Source: a virus. Taken from it: a stretch of DNA of 28,132 bases. The position numbers and the translations under genes are program-made. Position 1 is the first letter of the stretch; the number at the start of each line of letters is the position of its first letter. Under the pieces are notes generated by a model, which made no database searches, was not told the DNA's origin, and saw only the letters and a program-made list of their open reading frames with translations. Below are positions 2,651-26,794 of this stretch, in pieces. The stretch lies in the IMG/VR virus record IMGVR_UViG_3300035162_000936, positions 1 to 28,132 of that record. One strand, given 5' to 3'.

Positions 2651-3574
2651 ATGGCATATATAAACGACTACGCATATTACGCAAATTCAGGAACAGCGCC
2701 AACGAACGCTAATTGGGGTTCGTATCAGTATGTTTCATTGGCAGATATAGTTAACAATTTTATGTTAATGTATCAAGGAAACCACGAATTGATAAACAAC
2801 ATTGAAAGATATCAAATATTATTTCACGCAAAGAGAGGCGTTCAGGAATTAAACTATGATGCAATGAAGGAAATAAAAATTCTTCAATTAGACATCACTC
2901 AACAATTACGATTTGTATTGCCTCAAGATTATGTAAATTGGGTTAGAATTTCTCAATTTAGAAATGGAGGTTTACATCCTTTATCTGAAAATATTCAAAC
3001 AAATTGGTCTTCTGCTTATTTGCAAGACAATAGTTCTAATATTTTATTTGATCAAAACGGAAATGTTTTAAGACCACAAGATTCAGAAGTAGATTTAGCA
3101 AGAATTTTACGAGGTAATAAAAGTATATATTTAAATCAAAGTAGTGCATATAACGGATCTGAAGGATATTGCTGTGATGGTAATTGGTATTTTGATTATG
3201 CTATAGGCGCACGATTTGGTTTAAATACTGAAACTGCAAACTCAAATCCTACGTTTACTATAGATAAACAATCTGGTGTAATTAATTTTAGTAACATATC
3301 AGGTGCTGCCTCTATTGTTTTAGAGTATGTGTCAGACGGTATGAAAAACGGTGTTGACACTGAAGTGCAAGTAAATAAATTATTTGAAGAATATATTTAT
3401 GCTTATATTAAATATTCTATTTTAAATGGTAGATTAGGTGTGCAAGAGTATGTTGTAAATAGAGCAAGAAAAGATAAATCTTCTCTACTACGAAATGCAA
3501 AAATAAGACTAAGTAATATACATCCTGGAAGACTTCTAATGAATTTAAGAGGCCAGAATAAAATTATAAAATAA
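2651..3574 (+). CDS. Tail tubular/ring protein, crAss-like type (307 aa)
   Basis: The region WGSYQYVSLADIVNNFMLMY, followed by HAKRGVQELNYDAMKEIKIL and then LPQDYVNWVRIS, matches my memory of the crAss-like tail tubular (P22 gp4-like) family. There 'YISL.DI.NNF', 'FHA.RG.QEL' and 'LP.DYV....IS' are constant. A central variable part includes GYCCDGNWYFDY. The C-terminal part is helical and basic (NRARKDKSSLLRNAKIRLSN). The protein is expected in the neck below the portal, as a ring or adaptor for the tail barrel. The gene starts at the base after the previous stop and is followed, one base after its own TAA, by the muzzle gene. This gives near-continuous translation of the tail proteins. Confidence is good for the family. 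Confidence 0.75.
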   Translation: MAYINDYAYYANSGTAPTNANWGSYQYVSLADIVNNFMLMYQGNHELINNIERYQILFHAKRGVQELNYDAMKEIKILQLDITQQLRFVLPQDYVNWVRISQFRNGGLHPLSENIQTNWSSAYLQDNSSNILFDQNGNVLRPQDSEVDLARILRGNKSIYLNQSSAYNGSEGYCCDGNWYFDYAIGARFGLNTETANSNPTFTIDKQSGVINFSNISGAASIVLEYVSDGMKNGVDTEVQVNKLFEEYIYAYIKYSILNGRLGVQEYVVNRARKDKSSLLRNAKIRLSNIHPGRLLMNLRGQNKIIK

Positions 3575-3575
3575 T

Positions 3576-6500
3576 ATGCCAATAGTTACAACAAATTTTA
3601 TTGCAGGTAGAATGAATAAATCTGTGGATGAAAGACTTCTTCCTCCAGGTGAATATGTTGATGCAATGAATGTACGTTTAGGTTCTACAGAAGCTACTGA
3701 AATAGGAGCTGTAGAGAACTCAAAAGGAAATGAGCAGCTAACTACTATTCAATACAACGGAGTGGCTTTAAGCACTGCTGCTGTGTGTATAGGGGCGTAT
3801 GAAGATGGCGTTAGAGAAACTATTTACTGGTTTATTCATGACGGTTCAAATACTGAAGCTCCTGATGGAGTTGTTGATTTAGTGGTGTCATATAACACTA
3901 CTAATCAAATAGTTAATTATCATGTAATTACAGTTGGAATTTTAAATTTTGACCCTTTATTTTTAATAACAGGAATTGATTTAATTGAAGATTTATTATT
4001 TTGGACAGATGACAAAAACCCTCCGCGAACATTAAATATAAACAGAAATTACCCAGAACCAATTGCAAATGTAGATCAAATTATAGAAGAAGATATATCT
4101 GTAGTGGTAAAGCCACCTGGTTTTGAAAACATTGTAGGTGCAAATATTCCTTTACCAGCGCCAACATTAAATTTTTTAAATATTGCAGGTAATCAAAACT
4201 ATATAGAAAATAGATTTTTATGTTTTGCATATAGATATAGGTATGAAGATGGGCAGTATAGCGCAACATCTTTGTTTACCAATCCAGGTTTTGTTCCTCG
4301 TCCATTTCAATTTAGTACAAAAAACTATTGTAATGACGGAATGTTAAATCTTTACAATGGTATTGAAGTTAAATTTTCTACTGGTAGTTCAAGAGTAAAA
4401 GAAGTTGATTTATTATTTAAAGACACTAATTCAAATACATTAAATGTAATTGAAAGATTTAAAAAAGAAGATTTTGGTTGGGCTAATAATACAAGTAAAT
4501 CTTACACTTTTACTAACAATAAAATATACACTGTATTAGGTAATGATGAATTACTTAGACAGTTTGATAATGTACCACGATTAGCAAAAGCTCAAACAAT
4601 ACAAGGTAATCGCTTAATGTATGGTAACTACGTAGATGGTTATAATATTTCAAGACCAGATGCAAATGGAAACACAATTGCTGTAGACTATAACACAAGT
4701 TTAATTAATACTCTTTTAGGGTTTTCTGAATTACCATTAGGTCTTTTAAATAGTGGATTAACATACACTTTAGATCCAAATCCTGGACAAAGTGAAGTTA
4801 TTGATAATTCAAAAGTTACTCTTAATTTTTCTGCAATTGCTGACAAATTAAAAGCTAATTCTTTAATAGGGCTTACATTTAATTTTGACAGTGATAAAAG
4901 AGTTTTTTTCCCAACAGGAACTACTGCTGCTACTGCAAATATTGATTTTAAAAATCAATCTTTTAGTCTTTCTATAAATATAACATTAGATCAAGACTAT
5001 TCAAGTCCTTATGATTTTTTTAATAGCCCTTTGTTTGCAGAACGTATTGGGACTATTCTTGGCACTAATTTTCAACCTATTGCTACAGCAGATCAAGGAA
5101 ACTCATTAACAGATTTTTTTAATAATGAACTTTCTTCTCCAGCCATAGGAACGTATCCTTTTGTTAAATCTAACAGTAGTATTTCAGATGCGTCAATACA
5201 ACAAGGATTTAATATTTCAAACTTTTCTCCAGGATCAAACACATGTGATATTCAAACTATTGCAATGGCATTTCTGAGTACTGATACATCAGATCCTGCT
5301 AATCCTATAACTACTAAATTATATGAATATTTTAGATTTATATCTGTAGAGTCTGCTTTTACAACAGACTTAGATACAGGAAGTTTACATAGTGATCGTG
5401 ACTATGAAACAGGTATTGTATACAGTGACGAGTACGGAAGGTCTTCTACTGTTTTGGTTTCTGAATATAATACTGTTTATGTAGAACCTGGTAACAGTGT
5501 TACTTCAAATAGCATACAAGTTGCGGTATCGTCCAGAGCGCCATATTGGGCTGAACGATATAAATTTGTAGTCAAACCAAGTAAAGCAGGTTATGAAACT
5601 ATTTTTTGTAATTTTTATTATATTAGACCAAGTGATAATATGGTTTTCTTTAGGCTTGAAGGAGATAACGCAAATAAAGTTCAAAAAGGACAAACTCTTG
5701 CGGTAAAAGCAGATGTAAGCGGACCATTATCAAGAGTTGAAACATGTGAAATTTTAGAAATAAGTGCAGAGCCAACCAATTTTTTAGATGATGATAATGA
5801 ATTTGGCGATGGGTCTTTTCAATTAAAAGGTTTATACATGCAAATCAAAAATCAAAATTTTGATATTGTTATACCAGATGATTCTCTTATAGAATTTGGA
5901 AATGTAAAAAGAAAATCTTCTGGTAGAGGAAGTGCCAGTTGTAATATTCAACGAAAACTTGCATATAAATGTTTTACAACAGATAATGTTACTAATGTAA
6001 CCACAAATTATACTGTGCCAGGTGGTACTGTTATAAGAATAAAAGTAAGAATGTTTCGTAATGACACTTTTAATGGAAATGAATGTGAAGAAAGACTGTG
6101 GGAGTGGGAACAAGAATATATAGCAAGTAAAGATTACTCTGACATGAGAAGATGGTGGATTGGAGATAATATAAACCCAGATCTTGCACAGCCAGGAAAT
6201 GTTGTTATAGGTGATGTAGAAACTGCGGCATTATATGATAGCACTTTAGTAGCTCCAAACGGTTCAACTGGTCCATATATAGCTGCTGGTATGAGCTGTA
6301 CTCGTGACGCAGTAACTTTTCAGTGGTTACAAGATGCTGGTGTAACAGTAAATGATCCTTTATATTTAGGGGTATCTTCTGGAGTTCCAGGTTGTAATAG
6401 AGTAATAAACCCTGATAGAACATCTGACTTAGATGTTGAATTAATAGTTTTTAGAGCAAATACTTTAGTGGTATTTGAAACAGAACCAAATGATGCTAAT

Positions 6501-8384
6501 GCAGAATTGTATTACGATGCGTCTCAATCTTTTCCTGTATCGCAGCCAGATGGTTTTCATATGTCTGGTGTTAATAGTGATTTAGGAGATCAAAACCAAA
6601 CTGCTTCGCAAGATGCTGTAATAAATTTAGATTTTAGAGATTGTTTTTCTTTTGGTAATGGAGTAGAAAGTTTCAAAATAAAAGATCAATTAGCTGGAAG
6701 ATCATTTCAGTTAGGTCAAAGAACTTTAGCTGTTTCTAATCAAGACTTTAAAGAAGCTGATAGATTTGAAGGTATTACTTATAGTGGTGTTTTTAGCAGT
6801 AATAGTGGAGTAAATAATTTAAATGAATTTAATTTAGGTTTAGCAAACTTCAAAGATTGTGAAACTTCATTTGGGCCAATACAAAAAATGCATGCTCGTG
6901 AAACAGATATTTTAGTTTTACAAGAAGACAGAATTACTTATGTATTAGCAAGTAAAAACTTAATTAGTGACAGTACTGGCGGAGGTGTTATCGCTTCAGT
7001 TCCTCAAATTTTAGGAACTCAAATAGCTCGTATTGAAGAGTATGGTATTAGTTATAATCCTGAAAGTTTTGTATCTCACGGATATGACATGTTTTTTACT
7101 GATGTAAAAAGAGGTGCTGTATTAAAATTAAGAGGTACAAGTAGAAATAATGATTCTTTAGAAGTAATATCTCAACAAGGAATGCGTTCTTGGTTTAGGG
7201 ATGAATTTTATGAATCAGTTCAAACACAAAAATTAGGTGGCTTTGATCCTTACATGGATGAATATGTTTTAGCAATGAATTGCGATCAAATACCTTTACC
7301 TCCAGAAATTTCTCAGTGTGGTTATAAATTACAAAGAAATGGATTATTAGCTGGAGCATCAAATGCTATTGTTAGTGTTATAAATTATGGTGCATTAATA
7401 GGTACAGCTAATTTTAATTATAGTATTTCTTCTGGTTCAATAACAATTTCTGTATTATGGAATGGTGTTACAACAACAAGTACTACTTTAACTGGATCTG
7501 GAACATTTAGTTTTAATAAAACTTTAAATAGCCCTGCTAATGCAACAGTAACATTTACTGCGATTACAGCAGCATCTTTTGTAGTAACAGCTGACTGTGT
7601 CACTCCTACAGAAATAACAGTTGTAAAAATTGTTATGAACTCTCCAGAACAAAGTGGAGAATTTATTCATGTAGAATATCAGTGGGAAGATACTGCTAAT
7701 ATTAGTCCAGTAGATTCAGATTTAGCAGAGTTAGGTTCAAGTAATTTAGTAGCTTCAAGTTATGATGCTCAAACAGGAGTAAGATCTTTAGGAGTTTTCC
7801 CTTATGATGGTATAGATTTAACATTGCGTTCTAATAAAATAAATTTTGATACTTTTGATTGGGGTTATCCTAATGATAATTTTAAATATTTATCAAGCAA
7901 TAATTTGTATGCCAATAACCAAGCAAATATAGCGTCATTATTAGCAGCGGCTACTACAGTATCAAACGGATCTGTAACTAACCCATCAGCTGGGTTATAT
8001 CAAACAACAATAAATAATTTATCTTTACCAGTAGGTAATCAGTATTTATATTTAATATATGATTATAGATTAATTAGTTGTCAAGAGTTTTGTTATGACG
8101 CAAGTTCCTCTGCATCTGCGTGTTGTGATTGTGCATTTACGTATACATCATATTTAAGTAGTACTATGTTTTCCACACAATCAATTGTTTGTGGTCAACC
8201 ATTAAATGTAACATACTATCATTCAGGAAGTAGTACGTTGCCAGTATATGGAGATTTTGTATATTCTGCATCAGATGGAGCTGTTGGAAGTAATTTAACA
8301 ACAGGATTATATAAAATAAGTGCAACAAGTTATATAACAGTAAATCAATTTGGCTTAGTTACTGCGGTAACTACATGCCCATAA
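3576..8384 (+). CDS. Giant tail stabilisation/muzzle protein, crAss-like, with C-terminal adhesin repeat (1602 aa)
   Basis: The N-terminus has the signature NFIAGRMNKSVDERLLPPGE followed by YVDAMNVRLG, typical of the crAss-like 'stabilisation' protein that forms the barrel and muzzle of the short tail. A beta-propeller-like region includes DLLFWTDDKNPPRTLNINRN. A conserved central block (about residues 1098-1230) contains MHARETDILVLQEDRITYVL, NPESFVSHGYDMFF and GGFDPYMDEYVLAMNC. After it, residues ~1250-1350 look like an Ig-like beta insert. The last ~105 residues form a Cys-rich module with seven cysteines, including a CCDC cluster, and end in TTCP. This end resembles the C-terminus of the next gene product. 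The length exceeds that of the plain crAss-like proteins I know, because of the Ig-like and C-terminal additions. Start is the ATG one base after the upstream stop. The added C-terminal parts may be exposed and involved in host recognition (inference). Confidence 0.78.
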   Translation: MPIVTTNFIAGRMNKSVDERLLPPGEYVDAMNVRLGSTEATEIGAVENSKGNEQLTTIQYNGVALSTAAVCIGAYEDGVRETIYWFIHDGSNTEAPDGVVDLVVSYNTTNQIVNYHVITVGILNFDPLFLITGIDLIEDLLFWTDDKNPPRTLNINRNYPEPIANVDQIIEEDISVVVKPPGFENIVGANIPLPAPTLNFLNIAGNQNYIENRFLCFAYRYRYEDGQYSATSLFTNPGFVPRPFQFSTKNYCNDGMLNLYNGIEVKFSTGSSRVKEVDLLFKDTNSNTLNVIERFKKEDFGWANNTSKSYTFTNNKIYTVLGNDELLRQFDNVPRLAKAQTIQGNRLMYGNYVDGYNISRPDANGNTIAVDYNTSLINTLLGFSELPLGLLNSGLTYTLDPNPGQSEVIDNSKVTLNFSAIADKLKANSLIGLTFNFDSDKRVFFPTGTTAATANIDFKNQSFSLSINITLDQDYSSPYDFFNSPLFAERIGTILGTNFQPIATADQGNSLTDFFNNELSSPAIGTYPFVKSNSSISDASIQQGFNISNFSPGSNTCDIQTIAMAFLSTDTSDPANPITTKLYEYFRFISVESAFTTDLDTGSLHSDRDYETGIVYSDEYGRSSTVLVSEYNTVYVEPGNSVTSNSIQVAVSSRAPYWAERYKFVVKPSKAGYETIFCNFYYIRPSDNMVFFRLEGDNANKVQKGQTLAVKADVSGPLSRVETCEILEISAEPTNFLDDDNEFGDGSFQLKGLYMQIKNQNFDIVIPDDSLIEFGNVKRKSSGRGSASCNIQRKLAYKCFTTDNVTNVTTNYTVPGGTVIRIKVRMFRNDTFNGNECEERLWEWEQEYIASKDYSDMRRWWIGDNINPDLAQPGNVVIGDVETAALYDSTLVAPNGSTGPYIAAGMSCTRDAVTFQWLQDAGVTVNDPLYLGVSSGVPGCNRVINPDRTSDLDVELIVFRANTLVVFETEPNDANAELYYDASQSFPVSQPDGFHMSGVNSDLGDQNQTASQDAVINLDFRDCFSFGNGVESFKIKDQLAGRSFQLGQRTLAVSNQDFKEADRFEGITYSGVFSSNSGVNNLNEFNLGLANFKDCETSFGPIQKMHARETDILVLQEDRITYVLASKNLISDSTGGGVIASVPQILGTQIARIEEYGISYNPESFVSHGYDMFFTDVKRGAVLKLRGTSRNNDSLEVISQQGMRSWFRDEFYESVQTQKLGGFDPYMDEYVLAMNCDQIPLPPEISQCGYKLQRNGLLAGASNAIVSVINYGALIGTANFNYSISSGSITISVLWNGVTTTSTTLTGSGTFSFNKTLNSPANATVTFTAITAASFVVTADCVTPTEITVVKIVMNSPEQSGEFIHVEYQWEDTANISPVDSDLAELGSSNLVASSYDAQTGVRSLGVFPYDGIDLTLRSNKINFDTFDWGYPNDNFKYLSSNNLYANNQANIASLLAAATTVSNGSVTNPSAGLYQTTINNLSLPVGNQYLYLIYDYRLISCQEFCYDASSSASACCDCAFTYTSYLSSTMFSTQSIVCGQPLNVTYYHSGSSTLPVYGDFVYSASDGAVGSNLTTGLYKISATSYITVNQFGLVTAVTTCP
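8128..8381 (+). repeat. Coding repeat, copy in muzzle C-terminus (shared with 9630-9917)
   Basis: This protein-level repeat reads CG....(V)TYYHSGSSTLPVYGDFVYS and ends with FGLVTAVTTCP. The partner copy in the next gene reads CG....TLLYHNGTGTLPQVGDTIYS and ends ASGVVQTTYNCP. Shared are CG, YH.G..TLP..GD..YS and the terminal G.V...T..CP. A weaker third copy lies at about 9179-9417 in the next gene (TPNVGNWVFSDANGSTYL then NGVVVSSAAC). Confidence 0.65.
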
Positions 8385-8396
8385 ATAAATTAATAA

Positions 8397-9920
8397 ATGG
8401 CAGCATTAGGAACATATTGTTTTGATGGATTAAATTTTTCACAGGCCTCGGCTTTGTATACGGACTCAACCCTAACTACACTTTCGCCAGATGGTTGGTA
8501 TTCTCAATCAAACATTATAAGACAACAATTAAATGGTGTTTTATTAAATGCTCAACCATGTGGTACATGTTTAATTTCATGTGGTTCAGGTGTTGATGCA
8601 TCTTTTAGTAGTAATGGTTTTTTTAACGCTGACATTGATTTAGCGAATGACACTGGTGCGGTTATTTTATATTTTTATATGGGTAGTTCTATCCCTGACG
8701 GTGTACTAACAACATATAATGGTAGTACATATAATAGACTTACTTGTGAAGGAAACCACAATACTTATACAATAGTTGATGGCTCTAACACTCAAGTTGA
8801 TTATTCAGGAATTAACAATCAAGGCACTGGAAGAATTACTTATGTAGGTAATAGTAATACCTCTTTATTAAGTGACTCACCTTATAACACAACACCATCA
8901 GGTACTTGTACGTCTGGGGATAAACCTCAAAACTATACATATACTGGATCTTCATATGTAGCTCAAGGTACTTATGAAACAGTAACTGTGGCTTCAAACG
9001 AGATTGGAGTAAATCCAGGAGGAGCAAGTAGAGTTTTTACTATGGTTGTTCCTAAGACTTCTGCCAGTCCATCAACAATTAATTTGTTAATTGGCGCGCC
9101 TATGTGTGGAACATTTTTTAGATGGGAAGTAGATTGTCCAGTAGCTTTACCAAGCTTTACTGCCTCTGCGGCTCAAAGCACAACAGCTTGTGCGGCATCT
9201 ACAACAACATACTATTTTGCAAGAAACGCAACAGGAACATCTAATGCGTTTGTAGTTGATACAAATACAACTCCAAATGTAGGTAACTGGGTTTTTTCAG
9301 ACGCAAATGGTTCAACATATTTAAATGATACGTCTACTATACAGTATTACATAATAGCAAATACAACTGCAATCGGTGTAAGAAACGGTGTTGTTGTTTC
9401 GTCTGCTGCATGTTCTTCTTCAAATAGTTTAAGACTTACTGACTGTGTAACAAGTGACCCTTGGACAGCTACTAATACATACAATAATACAGTTGGAGAG
9501 GTTATACAATATAGAATTGGAAGCCCAGGTTCAGGAACAATATATTGTGGTACAGTAAGTCTTGTAAATCAATCAGGTGTTAATGACGCAACAATAGAGA
9601 ACGGTAATGTGTATGGTTGTGGTGACACAGTGCATTGTACGCCTACAAGTAATAACACCTCGTTTTTCGCTACATCAGGAACTACTACTCTAAATGACGG
9701 AACGTGTGGTAATACAACAGGTACACTATTATATCATAACGGAACTGGAACTTTACCTCAAGTTGGGGATACAATTTATTCAGGATCAACTTCTGGATCA
9801 TCAACGGTTACGTGGAGTAACTATAGAGGAATGGGTCCAGCTGACGTAGCAGATGGTGTTGTAACCACTGCAATAGTAAATGCATCAGGGGTTGTTCAAA
9901 CTACATATAATTGTCCATAA
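8397..9920 (+). CDS. Cys/Ser/Thr-rich adhesin-like tail protein with repeated modules (507 aa)
   Basis: The product is extremely rich in Ser, Thr, Asn and Gly. It has about 16 cysteines and very few Lys/Arg, unlike the other virion proteins here. The N-terminus (LYTDSTLTTLSPDGWYS, then QPCGTC) resembles modules in flavobacterial phage tail proteins. At least two internal modules (about residues 260-341 and 412-507) follow a common plan: a Cys, aromatic strands, P.VG..V.S, a Thr/Ser strand, then G.V and a closing Cys. The last is clearly related to the end of the neighbouring muzzle protein. No catalytic motif is visible. Candidate role: receptor-binding decoration or fibre attached to the muzzle. 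That is inference from composition, repeats and position. There is no signal peptide, so the cysteines would only oxidise after lysis if disulfides form. Confidence 0.75.
   Translation: MAALGTYCFDGLNFSQASALYTDSTLTTLSPDGWYSQSNIIRQQLNGVLLNAQPCGTCLISCGSGVDASFSSNGFFNADIDLANDTGAVILYFYMGSSIPDGVLTTYNGSTYNRLTCEGNHNTYTIVDGSNTQVDYSGINNQGTGRITYVGNSNTSLLSDSPYNTTPSGTCTSGDKPQNYTYTGSSYVAQGTYETVTVASNEIGVNPGGASRVFTMVVPKTSASPSTINLLIGAPMCGTFFRWEVDCPVALPSFTASAAQSTTACAASTTTYYFARNATGTSNAFVVDTNTTPNVGNWVFSDANGSTYLNDTSTIQYYIIANTTAIGVRNGVVVSSAACSSSNSLRLTDCVTSDPWTATNTYNNTVGEVIQYRIGSPGSGTIYCGTVSLVNQSGVNDATIENGNVYGCGDTVHCTPTSNNTSFFATSGTTTLNDGTCGNTTGTLLYHNGTGTLPQVGDTIYSGSTSGSSTVTWSNYRGMGPADVADGVVTTAIVNASGVVQTTYNCP
9630..9917 (+). 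repeat. Coding repeat, copy at the end of the adhesin-like gene
   Basis: This is the partner of the copy at 8128-8381. It aligns through the pattern CG, YH.G..TLP..GD..YS and the terminal ...CP. Similarity is at protein level; no long DNA identity is visible, so the duplication is old or was acquired from another phage. Confidence 0.65.
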
Positions 9921-9936
9921 AAATAAATAAATAAAT

Positions 9937-10752
9937 ATGTCTTTAAACTGCGAATCATATACATTATCATACAGCGAAACATCTAAAGGGTGGCCATCGT
10001 TTTACTCATTTGTTCCTGAATTTATGATAGGAATGAATAGTTATTTTTATAGTTTTAAGGGAGGTAATATATTTAGGCATAACACAGGAGCTGCACGTAA
10101 TACATATTATGGTCAGTATAGTAATTCTACTATAACAAGTGTGTTTAACCCAGAGCCTACTTTAAGTATTAAGTTATTTAAAACATTATCATACGAAGCA
10201 ACAACAACGGTAGTTGATAGCAATGAAGCAAGATGGGAGTGTACTCGACTACTTACAGATTTAACTGATGGTAACCCAGGGTCAATGTTGGAAACTTACT
10301 TTGAGGAAAAAGAAGGAGAGTGGTTTAGTTACCTTAGAACAAATGCTGGTACAGTAAACTGGAAACAACGTTCTGCAAATGGTGTAGGTGTATGTACAAA
10401 TGTAACTGGACCTAACACTGCAACTGTAGTTACTTTCGCAACACCTATTGGTTCATTACTAAATATTGGAGATACAGCATACGCAGCAACTTTAAATGCT
10501 GGAGTTGCGACTACAGCACCTATTTTAATAGGAGAAATTATTGCAAAATCAAGCACAAGTATTACTGTAAATGCTTCTCCAGGAGGAAGTACAGTTCCAA
10601 CGGTTGGACAGTTTATTATGTTTATAAAAAATGCGGTTGCAGAGTCTCATGGAGCGAGAGGATATTACTTAGAATTTAAGTTAGAGAACAACTCTACATC
10701 TCCAGTTGAACTGTTTGCCGTAGGAAGTAGTGTGATGAAAAGTTATCCATAG
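9937..10752 (+). CDS. Virion structural protein (271 aa), tail-tip associated candidate
   Basis: The N-terminal block SKGWPSFYSFVPEFMIGMNS, followed by YFYSFKGGNIFRHN, is a pattern I associate with a conserved virion protein family in Bacteroidota and marine phages ('GW.SFYSF.P....G.N...F.F..G...HN'). The middle (about residues 147-225) is a small beta-rich module with GSLLNIGDTAYA and SSTSITVNASPGG. The protein returns to a conserved end, FIMFIKNAVAESHGARGYYL then VGSSVMKSYP. No enzyme motif is seen. It follows the adhesin-like gene after a short A/T tract with three tandem AAAT units and ends just before a promoter, so it closes the tail operon. A part of the tail tip or muzzle is likely; the exact role is not known to me. 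Confidence 0.72.
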   Translation: MSLNCESYTLSYSETSKGWPSFYSFVPEFMIGMNSYFYSFKGGNIFRHNTGAARNTYYGQYSNSTITSVFNPEPTLSIKLFKTLSYEATTTVVDSNEARWECTRLLTDLTDGNPGSMLETYFEEKEGEWFSYLRTNAGTVNWKQRSANGVGVCTNVTGPNTATVVTFATPIGSLLNIGDTAYAATLNAGVATTAPILIGEIIAKSSTSITVNASPGGSTVPTVGQFIMFIKNAVAESHGARGYYLEFKLENNSTSPVELFAVGSSVMKSYP

Positions 10753-12087: not shown

Positions 12088-14322
12088 ATGGCAGAAGAAA
12101 CTTCAAGACCTTCAGGGGCTAATAAATATTCAGTTTACGCACAAAGAAGTGTAGATAGTACACAAGTTAATTGGAATGAAATATCAGGACAATTAGTTAA
12201 AGGCTTAGATACCATACGTGCTGAAAGGCAAGCTAAAAAAGATGAAATTGAAAAAGCTACTCAAGAGTCTATTGAACAACTTAGTCAAGTTCCTGAAACT
12301 GGTACACAAGAAGCAGCTTCTTTATTAATAAATGCAACATCCATGTCTGTTGAGGCTGTGAGGACTCAAAACAATTTAATGAAGCGTGGTTTAATTAGTC
12401 CTAAAGATAATATGCTTTTTATGCAACAGCAAAAAACTGGATATAAAAGTCTAAGTGCAGCTGTAAAGAATTGGGATGATTGGGCTGTTGAAGCTCGTAC
12501 AAGACTTGAAGACCCAAATATATCGTCAGGTAATTTAGAGACTTTTACTAATTTACAAACAGAAGCTTTAGGTAACTTAAGAAACAAAAAATTGTGGACT
12601 AACCCTACTAACGGTAAGATGCAGTTAGTGACAATGGGTAAAAACTCAAAAACTGGACTGTATGATGTAATGCCAGATTACGAAGCTCGAAAGCAAGACT
12701 ACCAAGATCCAAATCAGATAATGAATTTCATGAAGTATAAAAATGCTGGTGTTGATGTTAATGAGTTGGCAAAAAAACAAACAGCTAATATAGCTCAAAT
12801 TGTAACAGCTAATCGTGAAAGACTAACGGCTCTTGGAGGAGGAGGTGGTATTAATTCTTTTGATGATTTTAGACAATTAGGAGAATTTGGCAAGGATGAA
12901 AATGGAGGTGCAATTACTTACGATATGTGGAAGACTGATAACATTGATGCTATGGTTGGTGATATTACAGATACATCAAATCTTAATGCAGCAGAGATGT
13001 TAACAAATGCTGGGTATGCTTTTGCTCAGACAGAAAGCCAGTTTTTAGCAGAGAATAAAGGTAAAGATATATCAAAATGGATTAAAGTTGATATGTCTAC
13101 TGGGCAACCAGTTCCCGAAATGAAAGAAGCTCAAATGAAACAAGCGCGTAGACTTGCGGATGTTGCAATTGAAGCTCAAGTAAGTCACATTGTTAAATTG
13201 ACTGAAGGAAAAGGCGCTAAAGAAGCACAACAGCCAAATTCAGCTACTTTAGCACAACAAAAAGACGATAGTAAACTTATTGCGTTTATGGATGGTGTTA
13301 ACTCGTTAGTTTCAGATGACTCAAGTAAATTTGATGCAGAAGCTAATGATCGTATTGTTGCATTAAATAAAGACCAAACAGACCCAGCAAAAAGAATTGA
13401 TAGTATTGTAAGAGACGATGATGAAATCCTTATAACTTATCAAGATGGTACAGTAGAACCAATAAATAGATTAGATGATAGTGGTAATCCTAAACCTGCA
13501 AGAGTAATTTCTCAAGAGCTATGGAGATACGTAACAGATCAAGGAGATGATTCATTTAAATATGCAGCGGATCTTTATGCAAAAGAGCCAGGAGGTGGAT
13601 TTAGAAGTACTACAAGAACAGCGACAGCTGAAGAACAAACAAGCTTTTTAGCTAATAAAAGAGCTGTAGAAGCAGTAGGACCAGCTCCTACACTTCCAGA
13701 ATTGCCTGGAACTCCAACTCCAACTCAGATTAATGAAAATGCAGATAAATTTGAAAAAGAATCAAAAGAATATGCTTTAAAATTAAAAGCAGAAATTGAA
13801 GCACAAGGTAAAAAAGTAAGCGCTAATGATTTAAAAGACATAGAACGACAGATTCTTAATGGTGGGGATGCAAGTAAATATGCATCGTTAGCTCCTTTTA
13901 AAGAAATAAAATCATCTTCTGAAGTTGATATGGTAATGGGAGAAACTATGGTTTCACCAATTGGATTTATGAAAGAGAAATTAGATGATTATTTAGGTAA
14001 TTCAGATACTCAAAAACAAGTGCAAACTGCTTTTTCTGAAGTTTTCTCATATTTCTTACCTGATGAGTTTAAAAATGGTGCTAAATTAACATGGGACGAT
14101 AGTAAAAATCAAGTAATTATAACCTATAGAGATAAAAACAATAATGAAACTACATTACCAGCTATTCAAATGAGTGATAGTATGGGTAGCAGGACTTCAA
14201 CTTCAGCAGCAACTGAAATGATACGTAAAGCAGCAGTTGATGTTACGAATATAGAAAACAAAATTCGTCAATCAAGAAATAGAAAAGATACCAGAAAAAA
14301 AGCAAGAAAATTTAATGGATAA
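12088..14322 (+). CDS. Candidate internal/cargo virion protein (744 aa)
   Basis: This long, soluble, mostly helical protein has no signal peptide and no recognised catalytic motif. Features seen: an N-terminal charged helix (AERQAKKDEIEKATQESIEQ), a glycine run (residues ~250-255, GGGGG), a Pro/Thr-rich linker near residues 530-545 (PTLPELPGTPTPTQ) and a very basic C-terminal tail (RQSRNRKDTRKKARKF). Its place between the 295-residue membrane-active candidate and the giant 3045-residue protein, with an 8-base overlap with the latter (ATG at 14315 inside its end), suggests the middle member of an ejected protein set (T7 gp15-like position, crAss-like 'cargo'). This is inference from position and composition. 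I do not recognise the family with certainty. Confidence 0.68.
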   Translation: MAEETSRPSGANKYSVYAQRSVDSTQVNWNEISGQLVKGLDTIRAERQAKKDEIEKATQESIEQLSQVPETGTQEAASLLINATSMSVEAVRTQNNLMKRGLISPKDNMLFMQQQKTGYKSLSAAVKNWDDWAVEARTRLEDPNISSGNLETFTNLQTEALGNLRNKKLWTNPTNGKMQLVTMGKNSKTGLYDVMPDYEARKQDYQDPNQIMNFMKYKNAGVDVNELAKKQTANIAQIVTANRERLTALGGGGGINSFDDFRQLGEFGKDENGGAITYDMWKTDNIDAMVGDITDTSNLNAAEMLTNAGYAFAQTESQFLAENKGKDISKWIKVDMSTGQPVPEMKEAQMKQARRLADVAIEAQVSHIVKLTEGKGAKEAQQPNSATLAQQKDDSKLIAFMDGVNSLVSDDSSKFDAEANDRIVALNKDQTDPAKRIDSIVRDDDEILITYQDGTVEPINRLDDSGNPKPARVISQELWRYVTDQGDDSFKYAADLYAKEPGGGFRSTTRTATAEEQTSFLANKRAVEAVGPAPTLPELPGTPTPTQINENADKFEKESKEYALKLKAEIEAQGKKVSANDLKDIERQILNGGDASKYASLAPFKEIKSSSEVDMVMGETMVSPIGFMKEKLDDYLGNSDTQKQVQTAFSEVFSYFLPDEFKNGAKLTWDDSKNQVIITYRDKNNNETTLPAIQMSDSMGSRTSTSAATEMIRKAAVDVTNIENKIRQSRNRKDTRKKARKFNG

Positions 14323-17300
14323 ATTTACAGAGTTATATAGCTATTTAAAAGAAGAAGGGTTAACAGATTTATCTTCTGAAGAATTTAAAGATAAGTATGC
14401 GGCAGGAACTGCCAATAATACGGAATTATATTCTTATTTAAAAGATGAAGAGTTAACAGACTTAGATGCAGAAAAATTTAATGCTGTATATTTTCCTGCT
14501 TTAGAAAAAAAAAATCCAAACGAAAATTCTCAGCCAAATGTGGAGGAGGTTATTACGGATTCTACTACCGAAACTCCAGAGGTCGTAGATACTTCTGTGG
14601 ATTCTACCATAGTTGAAACACCTTTAAGTGACAATACTGTAGTAGATGTAGAGCAAGAAGACACCATGGTTACCGAGTACCCTGCATACGATGGTCGTGA
14701 GCAAGGTAAAGAATTTGATGACCCTATTACTTACGATTCAACAGACTCACAATTTGATCAATCTTTGGCTTTTGTAACTAAAGATTTAGTAGACAGGAAC
14801 GAAGAAGAGGTCGTTGATAGAATGAAGTATCATTTTGAAGATTACGGATTTGACTTTGAAGAAGGTGGTAGTGTGTTTGATGGAGTTGATGGTATGACTG
14901 TTACATCTAAAGATGACCCAACTAAAAGTATTAATGTAAATCTTGACCCATTTTTTAAAGATTTGTTTGGTGGTGAGTCAGGACCAGCACAAGAACTTAA
15001 AGAATTCTTAAAAGCCAACAGAAGAACTGACAGTAAAATGTCAGAACTAACAACTGGATACGATAGAAATAGAAAAAAATATTTTAGTCTTGAAGGAACA
15101 AAAGAGGATATAGCAGATGTTGAAAATACAGCTAAAGCCCTTAACACAAAATATAAAGTTTACTTAGACGCTCAGACTACACAAGAATCTGAAATGGATG
15201 TTTTGATGGGGCAGAGCCAAGAAATAAAAGCAACGCCTGAATGGCAAGTAAAATATCAAAATGCTTTAGCTAATGGAAAAAGATTACAGCAAACACGAAA
15301 CGTATTAGGAGATAATTTTAAGGAATACAAAAAACTTAAAACATTAGTTGACTCATCTGTCGGAAATTATATCGACATGAAAGAATCAAGTGATAGTACA
15401 TATCTTGGAGGGTTATATAATAATTTAGTTGGAACTGGTATTAGTGACAACCTTGCGGCTCTTTGGGGTGGTGTTGTTGATGGATATTACAAGGCAGTCC
15501 AGTCTGTAAACGAAGATTTTGGGATGACTCCTGAAGAAAAAAAAGATCGTTACATTGATATAGCAAGAGACCTTAAGTACCCAGTCCCTGAAAATATAGA
15601 GGATGAAGCTGTTTATAAAAAATGGTTAGATGGTTTGCAGGATCAAGGAATTGATGGTGAAGAAAAAGTAAAAGATGAAGATAGATTAAGAAATCTTTCT
15701 AAAGGTTTATTTTCTGAAGAAACTTTAGAACGACTTAAAGCTGATGGTTATGATTTAAGTAAACCAACACTAAACGGTAAGTTTTTTAATAAAAATCAAT
15801 CTGGATTAAATAAGTTTTTAAACGGTCAATACATTGACCTTCCTGATTATGCATATGATAAAACAAGAGGTGAAAGATTAAAAAGATTAGTCTTAGACCA
15901 AGAGGTAAAGGAAAATAAAAACCCACAAAAAGATTCTATTAAAAAATACTTTAATGAGATGCTGTCCCTGGATGATGTATCTGATGAGAAGTTTGCAAAA
16001 CAAAATAGAGATGGTATTATTGACATAGATACTCCGTTAGGAACAATTCCTGTAACTGAAGGGCTTACAGGTCTTTCTAAATCACTTCCGTCTGTATTGG
16101 TTTCATATTTATCAAGAGGTAAAATTGCTCCAGCTGTAGGCCTTGGAGCTGCTAAAAGAAATTTAATCGCAAGAGGTTTAGGGTTAACTACTAAAGGAGG
16201 GATAGCTCAAACTGTTTCGTTTTCATTATTACAGGCTGAAGCCATGAATGAAGAGATGAACAACGACCCTGACTTTAAGTATGTTACAGAGTCAGAAAGA
16301 AAAAATATTGTTATACCTACAGCTATTACAGTAGGTATATTAGAGCGTTTAGGTTTTAGACACTTAATAGGAAACAAGACTATAGTAACTGGTCTAATGA
16401 ATACGGTAACTAATATGTTACCTAAAGGAGCAACCGCAGTTATGTTTAGAAATACTATGAACAAGGTTGTGCAAAACAGAATTGCTAAAGGTCTTTTGTC
16501 TAATAAAGCAGTTAAAGCTACGATGACGTTTACTAATCGAGTTGCAAGAGCAACAGCGGCAGAAGCTGAAACAGGTGGACTACAGCAATTTGCTGAAATG
16601 GGTTATAAAGATGTGTGGAATAACATGAACAATAAGGAAATGTTTGACCAAACTAAATTTGATTTATGGTCTTTAGAGTTTTGGAAAACTATTGGGCATG
16701 CAGCGGCAGCAGAAGCTGTTGGTGGTTTTGTTATGGGTGTACCTGGAGCTGTAATTAACGCAGCCAAGAGAGGAAGCGAAGAGCTTATATCTGATGATAT
16801 GGTCGAGCTTTTTGATCAGATTGCTAATGATGGATTAACAAGAAAGGCTCATAAAACTCAATTAGACTTAGATGTAGCAGCAGGAACAAGAACTCAAAAA
16901 GATGTAGATCAAGAAATGTTAGACTTTGACACTTTAACAGGTGCATTAAAAGATCTTCCATCTGATATGGATTCAAATTCAAGAAAGAAAGGATTAATTT
17001 TAATTTTTGAGCAGCAAAAGTTAGAAGCTGAAATGGCTAAAATGAATAAGAATTTAAATTCTTATAAGACAAAAGAGGCAAGAGTAGAAGAAATAAAAGA
17101 ATCAATTGGTCAGTTAGGTACTGATCAAGCTCAAGCTAATACTAATTTAAAAAATGAAACTGAAGGAATTCAAGAATCTGTTTTAGTTACAGAAGAAGAT
17201 GCCACAAAATCTTTACAAGATAAGGGGGTGCAAAACCCTACAGTTGAACAAATAAAAACCGAACAAGATGCCTTACAAAAGCAAAGCACAGAGAGCCTGG

Positions 17301-20300
17301 ATGCACAAGAATCTACCACAAGTAGCGAAACGATGGGACAAAGCATATCCAACGAGCAGTCTACCAACGAGGGTGACACCAGCAATAAAACCAAAGAAAA
17401 AACGAAGTCCGAAAAGAAAGTAAGTGAAGATGATCAAAATGATATTGATGACTTTTTTGGAGATACAGTTTTAGATGAGGTAGAAACAACTTCAGATAAT
17501 TTATCTATAAACCGTAAACAAAAAGAAGGAAGCACTGAAATTGAAAACACATCTCTGGCAGCTGCTGTTGTTAACAAAGCTAAAAAAGCAGCACGTGCAA
17601 TTAAAAAACTCGCTCCTAATGTAAAAATTGTATTACATGATACTCAAGCTGAGTATGAGAAATATGGGACAAAAAATAGCAGAGGGTACTACAATCCTAA
17701 TAGTAAGGTTATACATATTAATTTAACTAAAGCTAAAGGTAATACAGTGGCACACGAAGTTTTTCATGCGGTGTTTTTAGAGAAAATATCAGGTGGAGAC
17801 ATTCAAGCTAAATTAGCTGCTAAAAAATTAATAACAGCTGTAAGAAAAACTTTACCAGCTGACTCTATGTTAGCTAAACGAATAGATAAGTTTGCTCAAA
17901 ATTATGATGAGAATTTTAAAGATGAAGAATATTTAGCTGAATTATTTTCGTTAATGTCTAATGAATATAAAACATTAAAGAAACCAGCTAAAAACAAAAT
18001 AATTGAATTTATAAGATCAATGGCTGCAAAGGTAGGTATTGAAATACCTGGTGGATTTGGTAAAACAGATGAGTCTGTTATTGATTTTCTTAATACATTT
18101 TCTCAAAAAGTTAGAACTGGTACTGAAATAACAGAAGGCGATGTAGATGTTTTAAATAAAATTGACAAAGAATTAGATGTAGAGCAAGAACAAGGTGATT
18201 CTGGGCAAGTTGGTACTTTTACTTTTGAAGGTAGAGAATCAAAAGCTCCAGACATAAACACTGACACCAGACCTTATGCAAAAAATATTATTCAGAAAGA
18301 CTTGACATCATATAAAGGACAAAACTTTGTGACTAACATGTATGACTTTACAAATGCTGGACCAACTGATATAGGTGCTGGTATTGTATTAGACTTATAT
18401 GGAGGTAAAAATTATGTTGCTGACATGATGGAAAAAATAGGAGCTAAATTAGGAGAAGTTTCTAATCTTGCTGCTTTTAATAGTAAAGAAAATGCTGAAG
18501 GATTTATTAAAAATTCTATTGATGGTGATGCGAATTTATTTGCTCCACACGTAGGAACTAAAGAAGGTTCGTGGCAGTTTCAACAAAATATTTTTGCTCA
18601 ATTAACTGAAAAATTATTAGATAACAATATTATAACCAATAAAGAATTAATTGAAAGTTTTAATAGTGGTTTAACCAGTAAGGATGGCAAATCTGCTTTA
18701 AAGACATTTACTGAAGCATATTCAAAAGCACAATCAAAAGAAGGAAGTAACCTTCCTAAATTAAAAAACACAAACAACTTAAATGATTTTATAGAAAATC
18801 CTAAAAAATTAGTTGAACTGTTAGATATTGATAATAATTATTCACCAGATTTAAGAAAAATATTAAACGATAAAATAGCTGCTAATGATAAAGTCAAGAA
18901 CGCTTTAGGTGTTAAAAATAAAATTCAATTTGCTGAAAAATTAGAAGACCCTATGAATGTAGGTAGTAAAGCTTTTGATTTAATTGGTGTTATAGAGTTT
19001 GATAATACTACTTTTGAAGCACCTTCAAGACCAAAAAAGGGAGATGCTGATTATCATCCTTCTTTTGCATGGACAGTAAGAGCAAAAATAAAAGCAATTG
19101 TTCAACCTACAACGTTTTATCAAAGTACTGAAGCTACTGATTCCTATACTAAGTTTAATAAAGATGAGGTAGTTGTTTCTACAAAAACTGATGTTAAAGA
19201 TTCAAAAGGAAATTCATTAGAAAAGTTATATAAAATAGCTCTTAAGGACACCAGAAAATACAGAACAAACAAACAAGGTAAAAAAGTAATAGCATCAGGT
19301 AAAGCTCCATTCTCTGGTACATTTGAAGATTTTCAGAAAAGTAAGTTTAAAAGTTCAAACGTAGCAAGTAGTGCAGGATCAGGCCCTAAAGTAGCTACTG
19401 TAAAATCAGAAATAAGAGAAGGTAGGGAGCAGTCTACTGAACAACAAGTAAAAGATCAAACTGGAATGCCAGCAAGTGGTTACTACAGCGCTCAAGCGAT
19501 GGTCTCCGATATACAAAGACAGTTTAATAGAATTGGTCCAGGATACACAGCTAAAAGAGCCAAGTTAGGAGCTTATGGTGGCGGTGGCGGTGTTTATGTA
19601 AATGGTCCTAAAGGGAGAGTTAAAAACCCTACTCGAACAGGCCGTCAACAAGTAATGGATAATGAAAATGATTTATTAAGAGTCATTGTAGCTGGTAGAC
19701 AAGAAGGTGGCTTTACAGATGCTGCAATATTAGATTATTTAAAACGAAGAAAAAGAAAAGTTGATGGTAAAACCGTTGCTGCTTATAATATTAAAGAAAT
19801 AAGAGGTGCGTTTAAAGTTTTAGAAAGTGAAGCTTTTGACTCTTACATGTTTAGAGAGTATCCTAAAAGTTTTAACGACATAAAAGGTGGTTTCTTAGCT
19901 GGTCTTAAATTAATGAAACAGGTTGACAATTACTATAAAAAATTAGTTCAAGACAATAATTTAATAAAAGACAGGATAAAGAAAAATAAAAAAACAAAAC
20001 AAATTCCTTTATCAGACGAGCAACTTAATTTAAAAGTTTTAGATTTTTTCATGGACCAGGCTGGTTATAAAAGCGCAGGTGTTAAAGGTAAAAGACAAAC
20101 ATCTCAGCAACTCGCAATGGAACGTGATATGTTAGAAATACTTCTTCCAGACCCTTTAAAAGCTAATCCACAGCGTATTGCTGCTATAAATAAAAGAATT
20201 AAAAACATCAAATTTGACGAGAAAAATTTAAAAGGAGTTCAGAGAGCATTACGAAATTATATTCGTATGGTTCTTCCAAGAGACTTGTACACTAAAAAAG

Positions 20301-23300
20301 AAATCACTGATTTAATAGATAAAATAAACAGAGTTGATGCTACTAATTTTGACTCAATTAAAGATGAGGTTTTTAAAATAGTAACAATAAAAACTAATAC
20401 TCGTCTTCAGAATATTCTTTTTGAAATACTTAAAAAAGATTACACTGTAGTTCAAAGTGGTAGGTTTAAAGGTGTTAAAATAGATAACAAAACACGTAAA
20501 AAACTAAACCGTATAAATAAATTAATAGTTAATCCAGAGGCAACTGAAAAAGAAATAACCAAAGCAAATAGTAAATTATTAGATAAATTTAATAAAATTG
20601 CAAAAGAAGAGGTTGAAGGTGAAAAAGGTGGAGATGTTGTTACAATTAATAAGAAAGATTTTTCTGAAAATGACTTAGAAGCAATGGCTGAAATTACTTT
20701 AGCTATGCAGATAAATACTTCATTTACTCAAGAAATGAATGACCCTGGAAAAACTACTCAATTAAACTCAGTAGTAAGTAGTCTTAATCAAATTGAAACT
20801 ACTGGTAAAGCAAATCTTGAATACCAGTTATTACAGGATGCAATTAAATACAGAGAAAATGACAGAGCTGTATATAAAGACATGACAGGTGTTGATTTAG
20901 ATGCTAAACAATCTCTCATTGATCAAGGAATTCCTGAAAATGAAATAACGGAATACATGATTAATAAAGAGTTTCGTGAAATGAGTAAAGATATTGCTCT
21001 TGATGCTAAAGAAGGTGGAGGTTTAAAAGTAAAGGGTGTTATAAAAAGATTTAGAGGTTCTATAAACAGTGTACTGTTATCTATTGAGCAGGGTGTTTTT
21101 GGTACGGCAGAAGATATGACTGGATTAATTGATAGAATCTCAAATCAGCCAGGAGAAATATTTGAAGGAGCCACTCAAGATATAACTCAGAAAGAAATAC
21201 GTAAAGCTTCAAGAATGTTTAAAGGAAGAATGCTTAACCAACAATTAATTTTTTCTGAAAAAATGACTGAGTTGTTTGGTAAAAGATGGACAGCAAAAAA
21301 TAGAAAAAATGCACAAGAAAGTGAAACTATTGTTCGTAGTGTAGTAAAAGCAGAAATGTTACAAAACCAGTTAAATGAGATTAAAAAAACTATTACTAAA
21401 AAAAATAAATCAGAAGTAGCTGCTAAAGTAAAAGAGATAGAAAAGAAAATAGGAGAGAACACTATAAGTATTAGCCAGAACCAATTACTTTATTATTATT
21501 CTCAAATGCAAGATCCTTCGTTAAATCAAAGTATGATTAATACTTTTGATGCTACACGATTAGGAAATGAGACTTTTGAGAATGAATTTAATAGTCGTAT
21601 AAAACAAGAGATTGCTGATAAATTAGATGACAAATTAATTCAATTGTCAGAATGGATGATAGGAGAATATTATCCAGAATCATACGATCATTATAATAAT
21701 ACTTACAAAGAAGTGTATAGAACAGATATGCCATGGAATCAATTCTATGCTGGTAGAGTTTATAGACAAAACGAAAATGAAGCTGAAGGATTAGATTTAT
21801 TAGCAGATAGTCAGTCATGGATAACAAATGTTGGTGCTGCCAGTACTAAAGCAAGGAAAGCAAACACTAATCCAATAAATAAATCAGATGGTATAGATGC
21901 ATTGTTGAATTATACCAAAGACATGGAGTATTTTGCTGCGTATGCAGTTCCAATTAGAAATATTAATAAAATATTTCAGTCACCATTAATTAAAGAAACT
22001 ATTAAGGATAAGTATGGACCACAAATATGGAAGTATATTAATGATTCTATTACAAAAATTGCCAATAAAGGAATACAGGCTCAAAACGAAACTAAAATAA
22101 TAAATACGTTTAATAATACTTTTTTATTATCTCGATTAGGTTTAAATCCAACACTTATTTTAAAGCAGATGACTTCATTTATTACCTATGGTAATGACAT
22201 TGGTTATTTAAATTGGGTTAAAAACGCAGCTATGAGTACTGTTAAAGCACGTACTTTAGTTAAAGAAGTTTTAGATAATTCAGTAGTCCTGCAAGATAGA
22301 TACGGCAAAAGCATTACAAGAGCTGTAGAAAATTATACCGATGATAAGTTTGAGAGAATGAATGGTGGGTTGCTTGAAAAATTTGGGTTAACTAACACTA
22401 AGCAAGATCAAATTAGTAAAATACTAATGTGGACTACAATGGCTGGTGATAAAGGAGCTATTTTAGTTGGGGGTGTTCCTAATTATTTATATTATAAAAA
22501 TAAATTTAAGAAGAAAAACCCTAACGCTACAGAACAAGAAGCAATCGATCATGCTATTATAAAATTTGAAGCTGACACGTTAAGAACTCAGCAGTCATAT
22601 GATTTACAGGACAAAGATTTCTTACAAACTAAAGGAGCTTTTGTTAGAGCCTTTAATATGTTCCTAACAACTCCAAAACAATATTTCCGTAGAGAGATTA
22701 TTGCAGCGAGAAACATGTATAGAATTATTAAGAGTGGTGGTAAATCAGGTAAAGGAGTTGTAAAAGATAATGGAGAATTAGATTACTGGAGAAGTTTAGG
22801 TAAGTCTGCAAGAAGTTTAGCAGTGTACCACGTGGTTATGCCAGTTATTTTTCAGTGGGTATCTCAAGGTCTTCCAGGACTTTTAAGAGGCTCTGATGAT
22901 GAAGACAAAGCAGAACTTGCAAGAGCTGCAATTATGGGTAACTTAAATGCTTTATTTATTATTGGTAAAGTTATAGAATCAGGTTTTGAAGCTGCGGCTG
23001 GTAAACCATGGGTAGGCACACCATCTACAATACCAGTCTTAGGGCAAACTGCTTTATTAGCTAAATTATATGCTGATATCGGTAAAATTAAAGATCCAAT
23101 TAAAAGAGAAGAAAAGGTTAATAAATTTATGGCCGAAGCAATTTCATTAACTGGTATACCAGCTGGACAGCTTCGTAAAATGATGAAGAACTTTAGCACA
23201 ATTGGTGACTCAAAAAATTTAGGGGAATTTATTTTAAAAGTATTTAATTTCTCTGAATACGCTCAAGGTAAAAAAGGAGGAAAAAAATCCAGAGGTTTGT

Positions 23301-24301: not shown

Positions 24302-24531
24302 TAGTCTAAAGAATTAAGTATTTGTTTACCGATAGCTGCGTCAATTTTGCCAATAGCTTTGTACAGTTTTTTTGATTTTGATTTTGTAATCTGTCTTTCT
24401 GTTTGTGTAGATTCTTTACCCAAGTTTGTGTAAAGAGTGCAGTCTATAAATAATAATGTGTCAATTTTTTTATTATCTGACCAAGTTTTAAAGTTTAAAA
24501 TCTTGTCTATGTCTTCTACGTTATAATCCAT
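24301..24531 (-). CDS. Unknown protein in replication operon (76 aa)
   Basis: The ATG at 24531 lies 11 bases inside the end of the DnaA-domain gene, and its stop overlaps the next start by one base. The N-terminal half is acidic (MDYNVEDIDKILNFKTW) with a short hydrophobic strand (DTLLFIDCTLYTNLG). The C-terminal half is Lys/Ser-rich and basic (ERQITKSKSKKLYKAIGKID). No motif is recognised. Coupling with the DnaA-domain gene suggests linked expression and perhaps a shared replication role (inference). Confidence 0.7.
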   Translation of the reverse strand: MDYNVEDIDKILNFKTWSDNKKIDTLLFIDCTLYTNLGKESTQTERQITKSKSKKLYKAIGKIDAAIGKQILNSLD

Positions 24532-26793: not shown

Positions 26794-26794
26794 A

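Follow-up and report, generated by a model that had tools for sequence, protein, structure and literature searches.

Why would two neighbouring tail genes of a crAss-like phage end in the same cysteine-containing module, and what might such a module do at the tip of a tail? The question arises in a virus record of 28,132 bases (IMGVR_UViG_3300035162_000936; "the window" hereafter means this whole stretch of DNA), a fragment of a crAss-like phage genome, in which a 1602-residue chain related to the crassvirus muzzle (A) is followed by a 507-residue protein (B) and a 271-residue chain (C). We found that the muzzle gene is split into A and C around B, with three copies of the module at the break, and that the last copy of B is gained, lost and swapped among relatives. 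The answer that we favour, as somewhat more probable than not and on the basis of sequence comparison, is that the module is an exchangeable tip adhesin of marine flavophages and crAss-like phages, mounted here on the muzzle, where it would bind a receptor. The features of the locus are as follows.

3576..8384, plus strand: A, the N-terminal muzzle chain, 1602 residues (PF25731, phrog_14478, BLASTP pieces to phi38:1, elemoA and MW202828)
7281..8381, plus strand: extra segment of A (residues 1236-1602) with a module at its end, without counterpart in the single-chain muzzles of phi38:1 and elemoA
8145..8381, plus strand: module copy 1 (A 1524-1602; 93 bits by a hidden Markov model, HMM, that includes its own sequence; profile-profile alignment; AlphaFold2 pLDDT 90)
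8397..9920, plus strand: B, 507 residues, between the two muzzle chains, with homologues at the same place in relatives
8568..9143, plus strand: predicted beta-sandwich (B 58-249; AlphaFold2 model with middling structural matches)
9150..9416, plus strand: module copy 2 (B 252-340), internal and weaker than the others (HMM 56 bits, own sequence included in the model; hhalign)
9432..9638, plus strand: optional Cys unit (B 346-414), different from the module
9660..9917, plus strand: module copy 3 (B 422-507), the exchanged cassette (HMM 82 bits, own sequence again in the model; exchange tests)
9937..10752, plus strand: C, 271 residues, the C-terminal part of the muzzle (PF25729, BLASTP to phi38:1)
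8336..8380, plus strand: DNA block conserved at the 3' end of the A gene; contains a 7-bp inverted repeat (8356-8362 / 8367-8373)
1679-2650 and 2651-3574: two virion genes upstream of A, in the position of the ring proteins

The initial annotation had proposed that A and B end in one shared module and that a weaker copy lies inside B. Both proposals stand: the open reading frames (ORFs) are as described, and profile-profile alignment (hhalign, using alignments of relatives) joins the tail of A to the tail of B at E 4e-18, the tail of A to the inner copy of B at E 4e-13, and the inner copy to the tail of B at E 9e-7. A lack of significant profile similarity had been named as the result that would speak against the idea, and the similarity is decisive. 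None of 100 column shuffles matched any of the three real scores, reversed alignments gave background, and other segments along the muzzle alignment (leaving out two overlapping ones at the muzzle C-terminus) scored at best 15 against the tail of B (real score 97) and 22 against the inner copy (real score 73). Identical rows were merged, and the muzzles of L074-L079, whose ends differ, were left out of the set of A tails; the inner B copy of L074 was missed by a regular expression and found by HMM. Here and below, L-numbers denote loci of relatives: the first set holds 79 loci, L085-L204 are later loci with the module DNA pattern, and L001 is practically the window's own virus.

Between single sequences the likeness is modest. 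BLASTP aligns 25 residues of the two ends at 44% identity (E 0.002), and BLOSUM45 without composition correction extends this to 94 columns at 22% identity (E 2.5e-5). Since they share only 22% over those 94 columns, the A and B copies are old paralogues. The duplication proposed initially did not hold up as a recent event, and we rejected a recent tandem duplication of A and B, whose copies are 22% identical (44% over the best 25 residues), as against 80-91% among the A ends of the closest relatives. The HMM, built from an alignment (A1) that holds all three window copies, recovers precisely the three intervals listed above and found no module at E ≤ 0.001 in the other window ORFs of at least 60 residues. 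The profile comparisons hint, weakly, at a fourth copy in the N-terminal part of B: hhalign probabilities are 44% and 30% against two of the sets, and against the third set, at 2%, the score was equalled by 3 of 100 shuffles.

The module comprises about 80 residues with a conserved Cys pair, which may form a disulphide. Its consensus over 147 copies reads xxFxxSxxxxxxxxxCxxxxxxTYYHxGSGxxPxxGDxVYxxxxGxxxLxxGxYxxxxxxxIxVxxxGxVxxxxxC; C30, Y39, P47, G84 and C92 (numbered on window positions 8103-8381) are conserved in at least 90% of these copies, and C16, P33, G77 and C85 are invariant in 13 module representatives. AlphaFold2, run on 8103-8381 with the family alignment, predicts a mostly beta fold with one short helix (mean predicted local distance difference test, pLDDT, 90; predicted template modelling score, pTM, 0.79). 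For so small a domain structural searches have limited sensitivity: Foldseek gave 25 matches in the PDB, none of them significant (best E 2.7), and VIA-align gave none with Z ≥ 2 among 67 chains. Among the predicted viral structures of BFVD there were 86 matches at E ≤ 10 and four at E ≤ 0.001, to uncharacterised viral proteins including those of phi17:1 and one uncultured virus; the Foldseek match to phi17:1 gp62 has a template modelling (TM) score of 0.73 and E 2e-5.

In Pfam, the 13 representatives have no significant family; eight families are listed at E up to 10, and BACON is not among them. The family that fits is phrog_21885, whose members are small proteins annotated as hypothetical in Cellulophaga phages (phi17:1 gp62, phi18:1 gp62 and phi38:1 gp086 are examples). 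It matches 11 of the 13 representatives, and its matches to two of the three window copies, those at the C-termini of A and B (E 8e-5 and 8e-6), start at profile position 65-66; the C-terminal half of the profile (positions about 65-140) is the module. The profile is not specific, because it also matches one of 14 control genomes, that of Methanocaldococcus jannaschii; the identification rests as well on the 11 representatives and on the structural match to the phi17:1 protein. Unlike the window copies, phrog_21885 proteins have an N-terminal part of about 60 residues, and their gene lies beside a fibre gene rather than in a muzzle locus.

The split of the muzzle around B had not been reported in the initial annotation. 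A matches PF25731 (crAss_MUZ; 43.8 bits, Pfam cut-off 27) and, in PHROGs, phrog_14478 (E 1e-229), and C matches PF25729 (crAss_MUZ_C; 44.2 bits, cut-off 27) and phi38:1 by BLASTP (E 2e-29). In phi38:1 (Cellulophaga) and elemoA_7-9A (Flavobacterium) the muzzle is a single chain with PF25729 towards its end, as is gp44 of crAss001, which parts of the structural report describe as a hexamer at the tail tip (PMC10172136). The window shares with the crassvirus muzzle the gene order after ring-protein-like genes, both muzzle Pfam domains and, by homology, the tail-tip position. It differs in having three genes, with PF25731 and PF25729 on separate ORFs rather than one polypeptide, and with a module-bearing A tail and B at the break. 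By BLASTP, A 8-1232 aligns in pieces to phi38:1 8-1072 and C 8-271 to phi38:1 1078-1323. About five residues separate the A-like and C-like parts of phi38:1; at that gap A in the window is longer by about 367 residues (1236-1602, with no Pfam match at E up to 0.1), the last of which form the module, and B follows. A, B and C presumably assemble into one muzzle. A phmmer search of A and C against the PDB gave no crassvirus chain and one chance-level match each, and the break could not be placed on the crAss001 structure.

The same break occurs in L072, L075, L088, L149, L151, L166, L168, L184 and L187; in phi38:1 numbering, their A part stops at 1072-1078 and their C gene starts at 1078-1088. 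In the first set, each of the 52 complete C homologues has its own ORF (251-322 residues), and the module forms the end of 66 of the 68 complete muzzles, the exceptions being L074 and L079. The arrangement around the break is variable. For instance, A and a B-core-like stretch are fused in L075-L077 (1805-1810 residues, followed by C), and B carries four modules by HMM in each of L088, L168 and L204. L098 and L159 encode a single chain of about 2190 residues (5532-12104 in L159) with at least three modules and Thr-rich linkers. The muzzle insertion of L159 includes a putative immunoglobulin-like domain (He_PIG; 32 bits, cut-off 24) and a BACON-like stretch at E 0.0075, which is below the cut-off and was not listed in a whole-chain scan at E up to 0.1. 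In the Manatee Spring phage MW202828 the split is present with a B of 183 residues.

Protein B is assembled from a core and optional units. Its AlphaFold2 model gives VIA-align Z scores of up to 8.3 to SIDT1 (B 58-332) and 7.3 to a collagen-binding domain (B 58-247), and 8.3 falls in the range common for unrelated folds. The single PDB structure match under E 0.001, a cocaine esterase, has a TM score of 0.08 and was discarded as not credible. A Cys unit (B 346-414; CG...C[GN]D..HC), without sequence similarity to the module, replaces or precedes the terminal module; it stands alone at the B end in L004, L006, L007, L012, L013, L014 and L044, and AlphaFold2 confidence is low over B 345-417. Complete B homologues with a recognised inner copy number 51: 34 end after the inner copy, eight have the terminal module, seven the Cys unit, and two (the window and L001) both. 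The terminal copy is dispensable, because two-thirds of these homologues have no terminal unit. A tblastn search with whole B against 50,697 phage records recovered only MW202828, through the first 58 residues of B.

How mobile are these units? On a muzzle tree of 51 rows, the four states of the B end require at least eight changes, and the state of the module at least five. Core and module identities conflict between pairs of relatives, and the terminal B module thus moves independently of its core. For example, the window and L049 share 96% of the B core and 57% of the terminal module, L049 and L024 share 72% and 92%, respectively, and L059 and L058 share 54% and 82%. At the DNA level, identity between the window and L049 falls from 88-100% over the B core to 67-75% in the module and returns to 95-100% in C. 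Approximately unbiased (AU) tests on the module data rejected the groupings window+L049 (p 7e-7) and window+L049+L003 (p 6e-4) and did not reject L058+L057+L054 (p 0.30); on the B core data they rejected L049+L024 (p 0.006) and L058+L059 (p 0.011) and did not reject window+L015 (p 0.13). The swaps would have occurred by recombination in the conserved flanks.

The initial suggestion that the module spreads by exchange is thus right for the terminal copy of B but not for the copy ending A, which appears to stay with its muzzle, judging from pairwise identities rather than a tree test. In all 36 pairs the last 100 residues of A exceed the muzzle body in identity by at most 3 points (e.g., 91% vs 94%, 84% vs 88%, 86% vs 83%), and in distant pairs they fall well below it (52% vs 72% for L059 and L058). 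Among 50 different single-module proteins of 91-299 residues, modules are less than 45% identical in 22 of 58 pairs whose N-terminal parts are at least 70% identical, these pairs not being independent and some N-terminal parts being only about 30 residues long. As another source of variation we considered a diversity-generating retroelement; Pfam revealed no reverse transcriptase in eight further proteins of the window, which is a genome fragment, and such an element may lie elsewhere in the genome.

The junction of A and B is also marked at the DNA level. The last 20 codons of the muzzle gene show 98% synonymous-codon identity (183 of 187, ten relatives), compared with 71% for the whole gene, 92% for its first 20 codons and 55-81% for the ends of eight other genes. 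The block at 8336-8380 is present with at most 10 substitutions in 45 positions in 28 of the 79 first loci. Within the window's clade only 1 of 1581 sliding windows is as conserved as the end of A; in five other groups the effect is much less marked (151 of 1596, 203 of 1447, 330 of 1553, 430 of 1476 and 89 of 1788 sliding windows are as high). An RNA hairpin was rejected, since the 113-nt fold was no better than shuffles (z +0.8; 158 of 200 as good). The block might serve to anchor recombination or to regulate B.

Cultured phages carry the module in another setting. Queries with three single modules, a three-module protein and the 977-residue carrier of L090 gave no muzzle-type module in the 50,697 phage records by tblastn. 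A query with L143, a phrog_21885 member, matched 23 records, among which certain phages appear twice, from GenBank and from RefSeq: 15 Cellulophaga records over at least 80% of the query, and eight Maribacter records over its first 53 residues. In seven Cellulophaga phage records the module is the C-terminal part of a 145-150-residue protein; in every case its gene shares one base with the tail gene before it. The module gene lies between that tail gene and a holin in phi17:1, phi18:1, phi18:2, phi12:1 and phi12:3, and Pfam finds fibre repeats in the preceding gene of phi18:1. In the other two records, phi38:1 and Calle_1, it follows a gene in which Pfam finds, for phi38:1, an S74 chaperone domain. 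The carriers are of different kinds, namely Cellulophaga siphophages of 38-39 kb and crAss-like podophages. In the Maribacter phage Molly_1, a BACON domain occupies the module slot behind a similar N-terminus (49% over 53 residues). The surface-type setting proposed initially agrees both with these fibre-adjacent genes and with the tail-tip position of the muzzle by homology.

Comparing module ends across isolation hosts, as the initial annotation had suggested, gave a mixed outcome, with a strong difference in one of three comparisons and similarity in the other two. In the divergent pair, phi17:1 and phi18:1, the lysins are 99% identical, the fibres 83%, the N-terminal 55 residues of the module protein 92%, and the modules 31%. 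Phage phi18:1 infects strain #18 well and strain #17 at an efficiency six orders of magnitude lower, according to parts of a published account (PMC11946311); this gap fits the divergence of the modules and proves nothing. The two similar pairs, phi18:1 with phi12:1 and phi38:1 with Calle_1, are taken up below; across all of these comparisons, module and fibre end vary separately.

If the module is indeed an exchangeable adhesin, a small beta domain with a Cys pair would be placed at exposed ends of virion proteins and swapped as a cassette. In the window, the muzzle chain would have been interrupted between phi38:1-equivalent residues 1072 and 1078, with A lengthened by 367 residues that end in one module, B adding two modules, and C continuing the muzzle. 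With A, B and C at 1:1:1 in a six-fold muzzle like that of crAss001, the tail tip would bear about 18 modules, which might allow multivalent binding to a cell-surface glycan or protein beside the ejection gate. The last module of B would be open to gain, loss and swapping through its conserved flanks, and that of A would remain with the muzzle. The crass domain of the crAss001 muzzle is itself proposed, in parts of the structural report, to contact the cell surface and start gate opening (PMC10172136). A bolder version, which we put forward tentatively and consider doubtful, is that in one group of aquatic crassviruses the gatekeeper muzzle is a three-chain complex with an interchangeable adhesin rack at the break, in which binding is coupled to gate opening and specificity changes by swapping the B end. 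With one module on A and up to four on B, a hexamer would then display up to 30, and the fold of the module would be particular to phages, with no relative among solved structures.

Several observations weigh against the adhesin interpretation as a whole. The modules of phi18:1 and phi12:1, isolated on hosts #18 and #12, are 98% identical while their fibre ends are 53% identical, and phi38:1 and Calle_1 share 90% of the module and 36% of the fibre end; the module alone thus does not track the isolation host. In phi18:1, gp59-gp61 are annotated from tandem mass spectrometry (MS/MS) and the module gene (gp62) is annotated as hypothetical, so the module protein may be absent from the virion. MW202828 and L074 have the split, yet their muzzle chain has no end module, and the MW202828 record has no module at all. 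The break is less clear in L098 and L159, because there a single chain matches phi38:1 as far as residue 1110, and its surroundings yielded no C gene. The 34 B homologues without any terminal unit belong here as well.

Some of these observations would suit a module that serves assembly or stability, capping or trimming chain ends in the manner of a foldon or a fibre chaperone, with no host contact. Fibre chaperones sit directly after fibre genes, as does the small module gene with its one-base overlap, and gp62 of phi18:1 has no MS/MS annotation where its neighbours do. Among the matches listed (L085-L204), 86 of 108 complete module ORFs have at most 10 residues after their last module, and in L086, L110 and L129 modules precede an S74-chaperone-like end (the two checked, L086 at 19.1 bits and L129 at 17.1, are below the Pfam cut-off of 22). 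An assembly domain should stay with its partner, yet the module is swapped or lost while neighbouring sequence remains 90-100% identical; B homologues, moreover, carry between one and four modules, and in Molly_1 BACON takes the place of the module. We therefore regard a purely structural role as unlikely. Much the same standing, or slightly lower, goes to a module that binds some target other than the receptor, such as particles, polysaccharide or a mucus-like matrix in the water column, and so provides general retention. Such a role would sit well with carriers of different phage kinds, with module genes away from the muzzle on one contig, with the similarity of the module in two of three comparisons across isolation hosts, and with its replacement in Molly_1 by a domain that has the Pfam title "Putative binding domain"; glycan binding has been suggested for BACON. 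Host contact would be the better fit for a domain on the muzzle, where the ejection gate lies, and the strong divergence between phi17:1 and phi18:1 also argues against retention.

The split and the modules might also be neutral, the outcome of gene fission in a surface loop and of illegitimate recombination that accreted dispensable domains. The frequent lack of a terminal unit on B, the wide variation of copy number and linkers, and the two complete muzzles without an end module would all be expected under neutrality. We nevertheless consider it very improbable, given a Cys pair, Tyr, Pro and Gly held in at least 90% of 147 copies and a module that ends nearly all complete muzzles.

Tip adhesins that can be exchanged are already known, mainly from fibres and spikes. 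The gp38-type adhesins of T-even phages and other exchangeable fibre tips are encoded by a small gene right after the fibre gene, with a conserved N-terminus and a variable C-terminus; the module genes of cultured phages are similar by this general description, and the window module differs in being also built into a muzzle locus. BACON (PF13004/PF19190) of Bacteroidota phages can fill the same slot, as in Molly_1, and differs in that the module has a conserved Cys pair and none of its 13 representatives matches a Pfam BACON family. Our searches of open papers, in which phrog_21885 was not named, turned up no account of this module family and none of a muzzle that is split and carries modules. 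In the window, a swappable domain of the fibre-associated type sits on a split crassvirus muzzle, the part thought to gate ejection. If the module binds the host, it would offer a short list of candidate host-recognition domains in marine crAss-like phages, which are mostly uncultured; cultured Cellulophaga phages carry the same module, and a test is possible now.

The module is common in viral contigs. A DNA pattern for its core occurs in at least 120 stretches of IMG/VR and in none of the 84,980 species genomes of the GTDB collection, the pattern being narrow; one module protein used as a query likewise found no relative in that collection. A bacterial origin finds no support in this contrast, though divergent bacterial or prophage copies may escape so narrow a pattern. 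Among the matches listed, 118 of 120 stretches have at least one module ORF by HMM (129 ORFs), and 90 of the 118 loci have a BLASTP match to a crass-like reference set, which is not a count of crass-like phages because many of the matches are to the module itself. Also among the matches listed (L085-L204), 65 of 108 complete module ORFs are no longer than 162 residues. The contigs of L057 and L058 have five and six copies by HMM, some in genes away from the muzzle. The six modules of the latter (G004, 105 kb) include those in a second 1605-residue frame and a 529-residue frame about 60 kb away; the explanation is either an assembly that joins two phages or a muzzle system that was duplicated.

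Small module proteins with a basic N-terminus (MALGNANxSAQxRGKN...) occur in L126, L087, L097, L141 and similar loci. In L087 and L141 the module gene lies upstream of an ORF of about 196 residues, an ORF of about 740 residues (probably the terminase) and the portal gene. The structural report describes gp21 of crAss001 as a head fibre (PMC10172136), and its number follows that of the portal, gp20. We do not claim a head-fibre role for the terminase-adjacent module genes; the L126 protein has no PDB match at E up to 10, and the module gene of phi38:1 follows the S74 gene. Elsewhere in the window, the tail genes are followed by a 3045-residue ORF (14315-23452) for which Pfam lists nothing at E up to 0.1, and the minus strand carries DnaA C-terminal-like (24521-25045), SNF2/ResIII helicase-like (25564-26805) and DUF5906-like (26795-28108) genes.

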